Of a DNA stretch of 64,000 nucleotides, positions 18,382 through 53,145 are shown in pieces. A program made the translations under genes and the position numbers. The notes beneath the pieces were generated by a model. That model did no database searches, was not told the DNA's origin, and was given only the letters and a program-made list of their open reading frames with translations. This stretch comes from Terriglobia bacterium (lineage in GTDB: Bacteria > Acidobacteriota > Terriglobia > Acidiferrales > UBA7541), in NCBI GenBank assembly GCA_020073485.1, contig JAIQFB010000010.1, forward strand, positions 124,001 to 188,000, given 5' to 3'. Each line of letters opens with the position of its first letter. Position 1 is the first letter of the stretch.

Positions 18382-18457
18382 GGTGGCACACGCTTCAGCC
18401 TGTGGGCCTTTTGACTCCACCCCTCGAAAAATCGCACAGGCTGAAGCCTGTGCCACC
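18382..18457. repeat. repeat family A hairpin between the two respiratory operons
   Basis: Two 23-base arms, 18382-18404 (GGTGGCACACGCTTCAGCCTGTG) and 18435-18457, are inverted with one mismatch, and each arm is itself partly palindromic (AGGCTTCAGCCT-like). A run of seven A's follows at 18460-18467. It lies between the ends of nuoN (+) and atpE (-), so it may stop transcription from one or both sides. Copies occur near 36.67 and 51.18 kb. Confidence 0.75.
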
Positions 18458-36636: not shown

Positions 36637-36712
36637 GTGGCACAGGCTTCAGCCTGTGCGGTTTTGATTTTCTAAATCCTGAACAGCGCCCAGGCTGAAG
36701 CCTGTACCACCA
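36637..36712. repeat. repeat family A hairpin
   Basis: Arms GTGGCACAGGCTTCAGCCTG.. (36637-36658) and CAGGCTGAAGCCTGTACCAC.. (36691-36712) are inverted copies with few mismatches, separated by about 30 bases. It lies between the purA stop and the moeA start, directly downstream of purA. Confidence 0.75.
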
Positions 36713-51136: not shown

Positions 51137-51232
51137 GGTAGGACAGGCTTCAGCCTGTCGGGTTATCGTCCTGAAAAAACAAAGGGCAGACAGGCTGATG
51201 ATTCGCTCCGCTCACCACAAGAGCCTGTCCTG
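51137..51232. repeat. repeat family A, diverged copy
   Basis: GGTAGGACAGGCTTCAGCCTGTCGGG (51137-51162) pairs with GACAGGCTGATG.. and ..AGCCTGTCCTGC (to 51232). It is a variant of the family at 18.4 and 36.7 kb with GGACAGG in place of GGCACAGG. It separates the deacetylase and prenyl synthase genes. Confidence 0.68.
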
Positions 51233-51238
51233 CTTTCT

Positions 51239-52213
51239 TCAATTATCGCGGCCGAGAATAAAATCCGGGACGGTGCGCAGGGCCCGGCCAAAATCGGAGT
51301 TGGCGTTGCCGTTCAGGCAGGCCTTGGCGCGATTGGCGAAATCCAGGGCCATGGCCCGCGTGCGGTCCAGCGCCCCAGATTCGTGCACCAGAGCGGTGAT
51401 CTGCTCCGGGCGCACGGTGTCGAATCCTTGTTCCTCGAGGACGGTGTGCACCAGGCGCTGACCGGCGGCTCCGGCGCTTTCCAGCGCATAGATCAAAGGC
51501 AAAGTCACTTTGCCTTCCTTCAGGTCGCTGAGCACGGGTTTGCCGAGTTGTTCGGGCGAGGCCGTAAAATCGAGCACGTCGTCAACCAGCTGGAACGCAA
51601 GGCCCGAAAAGTGACCGTAGTCGGCCAGCGCCTGCTCGCCCGCGTCGTCCAGATTTCCAAGGACCGCGCCCAGCCGCGCGCATCCAGCGAAAAGGCACGC
51701 CGTCTTGCGGGCGGCCAGCTCCAGGGCGTCCTCTTCGGTCAAATCCTCGCGTCCGAGCTTGGACAATTGGACGAGTTCGCCTTCCACCATGTCCTGCGTC
51801 AGCTCGATCAGGACGTCCAGAATCTTGAAGTTGCGTTCGGTGAGGGCCATGTGGAACGACTGCATGTAGAGCCAGTCTCCGGCCAGCACGCTGCGGTGAT
51901 TGCCCCAGCGCGAATTGGCCGAAGGCCGGCCGCGGCGCGTATTGGCTCCGTCAATGACATCATCGTGAATAAGGGTTGCGCTATGAATGAGTTCGACCAC
52001 AGCGCCCAGGCGGACTGCGCTATCGCCGCGGTATCCGGCATAGCCCGCCGCGAGCAGCAACAAGGCCGGGCGCAGGCGTTTGCCGCCTCCGGCTAGCAGG
52101 TAGCTGGAAATCTCCGCGACCGGCTCGATGGCCGAATTATTCTGCAGAGTTAGTTCCAGCTCGACCTTGATCAGATCGTCGCGAACGAGATCAAAAATTT
52201 CCTTCGCCGTCAG
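51239..52213 (-). CDS. ispB: polyprenyl diphosphate synthase, probable CTG start
   Basis: Makes the long isoprenoid chain of respiratory quinones from farnesyl diphosphate and isopentenyl diphosphate. Both Asp-rich motifs are present, LIHDDVIDGANTRRG and QLVDDVLDF. A count from the first standard codon (TTG 52063) would lose the first ~50 residues, including GGGKRLRPALLLLA, which is essential. The frame is open upstream and gives TAKEIFDLVRDDLIKVELE, a normal start, preceded by CTG at 52211-52213. That CTG overlaps the tatD stop as CTGA, like the ATGA and GTGA couplings elsewhere in this window, and GGGAGGAG lies about 13 bases upstream. The resulting 324 residues is the usual length. The chain length cannot be predicted here. 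Confidence 0.88.
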   Translation of the reverse strand: MTAKEIFDLVRDDLIKVELELTLQNNSAIEPVAEISSYLLAGGGKRLRPALLLLAAGYAGYRGDSAVRLGAVVELIHSATLIHDDVIDGANTRRGRPSANSRWGNHRSVLAGDWLYMQSFHMALTERNFKILDVLIELTQDMVEGELVQLSKLGREDLTEEDALELAARKTACLFAGCARLGAVLGNLDDAGEQALADYGHFSGLAFQLVDDVLDFTASPEQLGKPVLSDLKEGKVTLPLIYALESAGAAGQRLVHTVLEEQGFDTVRPEQITALVHESGALDRTRAMALDFANRAKACLNGNANSDFGRALRTVPDFILGRDN

Positions 52214-53043
52214 AAGTGAGATGATGCTCCTCCCGGAACTGCCTGGTCGCGATTGGGGACCCGATCGATGGCAAACAAACGCCGAAAATTTTCCGCCGTC
52301 ACCCCGGCCACATCGTCCGCCGGCAAGTTTCTCACATTCCCGATGGTTCGCGCCACTTCCGCGACGTTGGCCGGCTCGTTGCGGCGTCCGCGGTGCGGCA
52401 CCGGAGCAAGGAACGGAGAATCCGTTTCGATGAGCAGGCGGTCCATCGGAATCGCAGCGGCTGCGTCACGCAAATTCTGGGCCTTGGGGTAGGTCACGTT
52501 CCCCGCGAACGATACCAAAAATCCCATGTCCAATCCGTGGCGCGCTTCTTCGACAGTTCCGCCGAAGCAATGGAAAATGCCGCCCAGCCCGGAACTCCGC
52601 CAATCCTGGTCCAAGATCTTGAGGCAATCCGGCCAGGCTTCGCGGCAATGAATGACGATCGGTTTGCGGGCTGCGCGCGCCTGCTCAAGCTGGCGGCGAA
52701 ACACCTGCGCCTGGATCTCGCGGGGCGAGTGGTCGTAATGAAAGTCGAGTCCAATCTCGCCCCAGGCGATGACGCGCGGATGCCGTGCCAGGCGGTCGAG
52801 TTCGGCGTAGTGCGCTTCGGTGGCATGCCGCGCCTCGTGCGGATGAATTCCGATGGAGGCGTAGATCCAGTCGTGCGCCTCGGCGTAGGGCACCGCCGCG
52901 CCCAGCTTTTCGATCTCCGGGCCGTTGCCGATGGCGAGGATCATGCCCACACCCGCCGACCGGGCGCGCGCCAGCATGGCGTCGCGGTCGGCGTCGTAGT
53001 CGGAGACATCCACGTGCGCGTGCGAATCGATCAGGTTCATCAA
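52210..53043 (-). CDS. tatD: TatD-family metal-dependent DNase
   Basis: A 277-residue TIM-barrel hydrolase. Metal residues are visible: His8 and His10 (IDSHAHVDV), Glu in WGEIGLDFHYD, His in PIVIHCREAW, His in IFHCFGG and Asp in LLIETDSPFLAPVPHRGRRNEP. The family has 3'-5' exonuclease or DNA/D-amino-acyl editing roles. It is often encoded directly after metG, as here, where metG lies 103 bp upstream on the same strand. The downstream ispB starts on its stop codon. Confidence 0.93.
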   Translation of the reverse strand: MMNLIDSHAHVDVSDYDADRDAMLARARSAGVGMILAIGNGPEIEKLGAAVPYAEAHDWIYASIGIHPHEARHATEAHYAELDRLARHPRVIAWGEIGLDFHYDHSPREIQAQVFRRQLEQARAARKPIVIHCREAWPDCLKILDQDWRSSGLGGIFHCFGGTVEEARHGLDMGFLVSFAGNVTYPKAQNLRDAAAAIPMDRLLIETDSPFLAPVPHRGRRNEPANVAEVARTIGNVRNLPADDVAGVTAENFRRLFAIDRVPNRDQAVPGGASSHF

Positions 53044-53065: not shown

Positions 53066-53123
53066 GCGCCCGCCTTCAGGCGGGGAGTTGCTCGACGCGA
53101 AAGTGTCCGCCTGAGGGCGGGCA
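53066..53123. repeat. G+C-rich inverted repeat between metG and tatD
   Basis: GCGCCCGCCTTCAGGCGGGG (53066-53085) and GTCCGCCTGAGGGCGGGCAC (53104-53123) are inverted with few mismatches, each with an inner palindrome. The layout resembles family A but with a different core (CCGCCTTCAGGCGG). It lies inside the metG-tatD gap. Confidence 0.65.
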
Positions 53124-53145
53124 CTTCACGGATCGAGACCGAGGA

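Follow-up and report, generated by a model that had tools for sequence, protein, structure and literature searches.

A polyprenyl diphosphate synthase gene of Acidiferrales most likely starts at a conserved AUC codon, and its translation is probably held low

To our knowledge, few bacterial genes have a conserved start codon other than AUG, GUG or UUG. In Escherichia coli, the poly(A) polymerase gene pcnB has an experimentally demonstrated AUU start, and Binns and Masters reportedly described in 2002 that this codon limits its expression. The polyprenyl diphosphate synthase gene analyzed here would share the AUH start type (AUC, AUU or AUA) with pcnB, from which it differs in the function of the product and in the experimental proof available for the pcnB start.

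According to the excerpted text of PMC5472188, infC, the gene for initiation factor IF3, starts at ATT in E. coli and at ATC in Streptomyces and is repressed by IF3; in Staphylococcus aureus its start is AUA (PMC13009471, excerpted text). The synthase gene resembles infC in having an AUH codon after a good Shine-Dalgarno (SD) sequence, and the two genes appear to share the start type in genomes of the same family. The synthase is, however, a metabolic enzyme for which autoregulation is impossible, and its regulation by IF3 is putative. Two other S. aureus genes, cvfC1 (AUU) and ccpN (AUA), have conserved AUH starts with an extended SD, similar to the synthase. In poor medium they reach about 10% of the output obtained with AUG, and in rich medium ccpN reaches 30% (PMC13009471, excerpted text). 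These are other genes from another phylum, their starts were measured with Ribo-RET and reporters, and AUC is not among them in the excerpts of that paper. The Streptomyces gene sigR, with an IF3-repressed GTC start, provides another conserved non-canonical start that was missed by annotation, as in the synthase, but it encodes a regulator and its start was shown experimentally, whereas the synthase start is read from sequence (PMC5472188, excerpted text). In vitro, initiation on weak codon pairs is lowered by IF3 (PMC10158994, excerpted text). Conserved AUH starts are a known type, to which the synthase probably adds a further gene. A literature search for an AUC start of a prenyl synthase, or for work on start codons in Acidiferrales, returned nothing.

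The window, which is the whole 64,000-nucleotide stretch of Terriglobia DNA that was analyzed, contains the following features. The counts refer to 63 genomes of the family to which the window belongs (f1), outside genus g4.

51239 to 52222, minus strand: long-chain polyprenyl diphosphate synthase gene; proposed start ATC at 52222; 327 amino acids, first residue read as Met
52210 to 53040, minus strand: tatD (TatD/YcfH-type nuclease), 5' of the synthase; PF01026, E 7.3e-81 (query 52210-53034)
52220 to 52222, minus strand: proposed start codon ATC (AUC); ATC in 56, ATT in 6, ATA in 1 and ATG in 0 of the 63 genomes
52227 to 52234, minus strand: SD sequence GGGAGGAG; predicted pairing -10.3 kcal/mol; GGAGG-like core in the alignment
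52211 to 52213, minus strand: CTG taken as the start in the original prediction, here internal Leu codon 4; CTG in 26 of the 63 genomes; no SD at its distance

By Pfam and NCBIfam, the synthase gene encodes a polyprenyl synthetase and its upstream neighbour a nuclease of the TatD type. The synthase product matches PF00348 (E 2.8e-67), and its best NCBIfam models are octaprenyl, solanesyl and heptaprenyl diphosphate synthase, each under its own curated cut-off. The translation contains GGGKRLRP and LIHDDVID, the latter presumably the first DDxxD-type motif; we take both to have roles in long-chain trans-polyprenyl diphosphate synthases. Relatives align over the full length, first residues included, the closest named one being Ca. 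Acidiferrum typicum (92% identity; order Ca. Acidiferrales, Acidobacteriota). Another homologue, of a shorter-chain type, is encoded elsewhere in the same genome.

The reading frame of the synthase is free of stops from 52465 down to the stop at 51239, leaving 81 open codons upstream. Its earliest ATG, GTG or TTG is the TTG at 52063, which lies past GGGKRLRP; the 53 codons ahead of it, this motif included, encode the conserved synthase N-terminus. A coding-potential calculation that used no start codon places the onset of the signal at about 52228-52213, not at 52063. The earlier claim that the gene lacks an ordinary start and that its true N-terminus lies 5' of 52063 is supported. A mechanical ORF finder drops 53 residues, GGGKRLRP among them, so that annotated synthase proteins in the family may well be wrong.

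The codon ATC at 52222-52220 lies three codons 5' of the CTG at 52213 and at normal spacing after GGGAGGAG, and the final 13 bases of tatD overlap the gene from this start. The SD strength is equalled by only 3.3% of 627 gene models with canonical starts in the same genome, in which the candidate anti-SD sequence GGATCACCTCCTT occurs twice. Two ATC codons are adjacent in the window; only the second is conserved, and the first (52225-52223) was rejected as a start for that reason and for its short SD spacing. The very rare AUC at 52222-52220, and not CUG, is the most likely start of synthase translation in these soil Acidobacteria.

The start region was compared across the order, where 95 genomes yielded 84 with a synthase match at 1e-60. 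With G075 left out (N-terminus missing) and G013 added (partial gene), the set comprised 84 loci: 79 from f1, one from family f2 and four from family f3. The 63 f1 genomes outside g4 cover 12 genera, and since 33 of them belong to genus g5 the rows are related. An ATH codon stands three codons before the CTG site (codon 0) in all 63 (63 of the 79 f1 genomes), with ATG in none. The SD pairing ahead of it averages -9.3 kcal/mol (range -11.3 to -5.9). For comparison, the Ile of the EIFDL motif in the same 63 genes is encoded by ATT in 41, ATC in 11, ATA in 4 and other codons in 7 cases. The ratio of ATC to ATT plus ATA is 56/7 at the start and 11/45 at this Ile (Fisher p 7e-15, an overstated value because the rows are related), and in its third base the ATH codon differs from an ordinary Ile codon. 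Calculations of mRNA structure gave no sign of a conserved fold around the start (mean z +0.30 over the 63 genomes, mononucleotide shuffles).

The original prediction regarded CTG 52213-52211 as the only plausible start, forming an overlap with the tatD stop; such an overlap would serve termination at tatD followed by reinitiation. The codon is present and overlaps the tatD stop TGA (52212-52210) as CTGA; the same overlap occurs in 6/6 genomes of g1, the genus of the window, and in 5/5 of g12, and CUG is among the starts of translation table 11. Elsewhere, the four-base overlap with tatD reads CTAA (G017) or GTGA (G018, G025). The check suggested with the original prediction, a search for ATG or GTG at the overlap in relatives, lends the CTG start slight support: GTG is at codon 0 in four of the 63 genomes (G018 as GTGA) and also in G025, the f2 genome. 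The arrangement is nevertheless not conserved across relatives. Most other genomes have the tatD stop at another site, its position and frame varying between genomes; in many of them it falls well 5' of the synthase start region, but the ATH codon and the SD persist. Codon 0 is CTG in 26 genomes, CTC in 16, CTT in 7, GTG in 4, CTA in 3, TTG and CAG in 2 each, and TTC, ATA and CGA in 1 each; it is therefore canonical (GTG or TTG) in only 6/63 and none of ATG, GTG, TTG and CTG in 31/63. SD pairing at the CTG distance is +2.0 kcal/mol in the window and +0.3 on average over the 63 genomes, as compared to -10.3 and -9.3 kcal/mol three codons upstream. Codon 0 conservation and SD pairing led us to reject CTG as the start, which we regard as very improbable; the broader idea of a non-standard start near the tatD stop, overlooked by ordinary gene callers, holds.

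If the ATC were instead an internal Ile codon, the protein would begin further upstream or arise by frameshifting or readthrough from tatD. The 81 open codons in the window would permit this, and 19 of the 63 genomes have at least one in-frame upstream ATG, GTG or TTG; in g5, for the most part, the sites of these codons differ between genomes and coincide with the SD or precede it. In the other 44 genomes (9 genera), however, an in-frame stop is present upstream with no ATG, GTG or TTG between it and the ATH codon, and in 17 of these the stop lies within five codons of the ATH. The next downstream ATG, GTG or TTG in these 44 is at least seven codons past codon 0 in 34 and at codon 0 in six. 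Over all 63 genomes, 23 have some ATG, GTG or TTG within -25 to +4, in scattered places; in G045 an ATG occupies the exact position used by g4. Some conservation is also found directly 5' of the ATH codon, with G at -3 in 50/63 and C at -1 in 51/63, which is not accounted for by an ATC start. This conservation could be left over from an earlier gene start of the form ATG-GCC-ATC, as found in G028 of family f3 and, as ATG-GCC-ATT, in the outgroup G126, where ATG stands two codons before the ATH. The variable place and frame of the tatD end, the conservation of the SD at start-codon spacing and a codon choice unlike that of a true Ile all argue against an internal codon, and we give this explanation hardly any weight.

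In genus g4, all 16 genomes have ATG (15) or GTG (1) two codons before the ATH site and TTC or TTT at the site itself; the alignment of G095 is out of register, and this genome was inspected by eye. The SD pairing ahead of the g4 start is weaker on the whole (+2.9 to -6.3 kcal/mol for the 15 genomes in register). In a quick protein tree, g4 forms a single clade (83) within f1. The genus appears to provide a natural control, in which the ATH codon is absent where an ordinary start is found two codons upstream. On the same tree, in which inner branches are partly weak and long f5 branches lie beside f3, at least four changes between AUH and canonical starts are needed. Among the reviewed genes with conserved starts other than AUG, GUG or UUG, the products are regulators, small proteins and IF3. 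Here the gene of a metabolic enzyme has retained a probable AUC start in 12 genera, and its counterpart in the sister genus g4 has an ordinary one, which offers a ready comparison for studying the purpose of such starts.

Family f3 has SD and ATC in G026, G027 and G030 and ATG in G028, and the f2 genome has GTG at its overlap. Outside the order, 49 genomes from eight families were collected from the class sample and a homologue search. All 49 have ATG, GTG or TTG within -25 to +4; G031 and G141 additionally contain ATH with an SD. An SD with ATC as the candidate start also occurs in 3/4 f3 genomes and perhaps in G031.

The gene for IF3 shows a similar beginning in the same family. In 15/15 f1 genomes examined, of 23 with an infC match, the infC frame has a G-rich SD (GGAGGT in 11, GGGGGA in 2 and GGGGGTGA in 2) followed by ATC, at which infC appears to start in all 15. 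Two of the 15 are the g4 members G008 and G020, whose synthase gene has ATG. In the f3 genomes G026, G027, G028 and G029, infC seems to start at ACG after a GAGG-type SD, with an alternative GTG a few codons later. The C-domain of IF3 (PF00707) scores 83-104 bits in f1, as compared to 104-119 bits in f2, f3 and further families belonging to the class. The lower scores indicate divergence of IF3 in the very family in which the AUC start is retained.

In the mechanism that we propose, the strong SD, which lies within the last part of tatD, would position the ribosomes, and the usual initiator, fMet-tRNA(CAU), would decode AUC 52222-52220, making Met the first residue. IF3 would reject part of the initiation complexes on AUC, AUU or AUA and in this way keep enzyme levels low, and synthase output could respond to IF3 activity, as is the case for infC. 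The family would keep these codons because their partial rejection by IF3 holds synthesis at a low, presumably beneficial level. We are highly confident in this combination of initiation at AUC through the SD and fMet-tRNA(CAU) with retention of AUH for IF3-limited synthesis. Since an AUH codon is kept behind a good SD, as at infC, translation of the synthase is probably held low on purpose. The weakness of AUC could also be merely tolerated, with reinitiation after tatD and the strong SD compensating for it and no regulatory meaning attached. The position of tatD upstream in 84/84 loci and the unusual strength of the SD fit such tolerance, and drift as the cause of AUC retention is compatible with the data. 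However, AUG is one base away and occurs in 0/63 genomes, ATC was kept over 12 f1 genera, and g4 lost the ATH codon when ATG appeared, which makes tolerance rather unlikely as compared to IF3-limited synthesis. More tentatively, the AUC starts of infC and the synthase might form a family-wide link of the initiation machinery to isoprenoid chain supply, placing quinone or lipid-carrier precursors under IF3, a circuit that g4 would have left by gaining AUG two codons upstream. If this possible though doubtful link exists, precursor synthesis would go up at low ratios of IF3 to ribosomes.

A survey of 999,156 bases of the genome (704 gene models), based on clear coding signal at least 12 codons above the first ATG, GTG or TTG, flagged only the synthase gene. 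It gave no sign of a general AUH habit among genes losing at least 12 codons, but it overlooked infC, present in the same stretch, and is therefore no proof that other genes of the genome lack AUH starts. A special initiator tRNA reading AUC was also considered and rejected: in 1.0 Mb searched with ARAGORN and for RF00005 match sites (assembly 97% complete), the search found one tRNA-Met(cat), which we take to be initiator-type from its initiator features, and an ordinary tRNA-Ile(gat).

Two repeats were noticed in the window. An inverted pair, GCGCCCGCCTTCAGGCGG, lies at 53066-53124 between tatD and metG; as a dispersed repeat it has two matches in the window, which is not above chance. A palindromic repeat around GACAGGCTGAAGCCTGTC is found at 51141-51160, 18434-18452 and 36641-36706. 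With five matches in the window at no more than three mismatches, against zero expected, it is probably a dispersed intergenic repeat.
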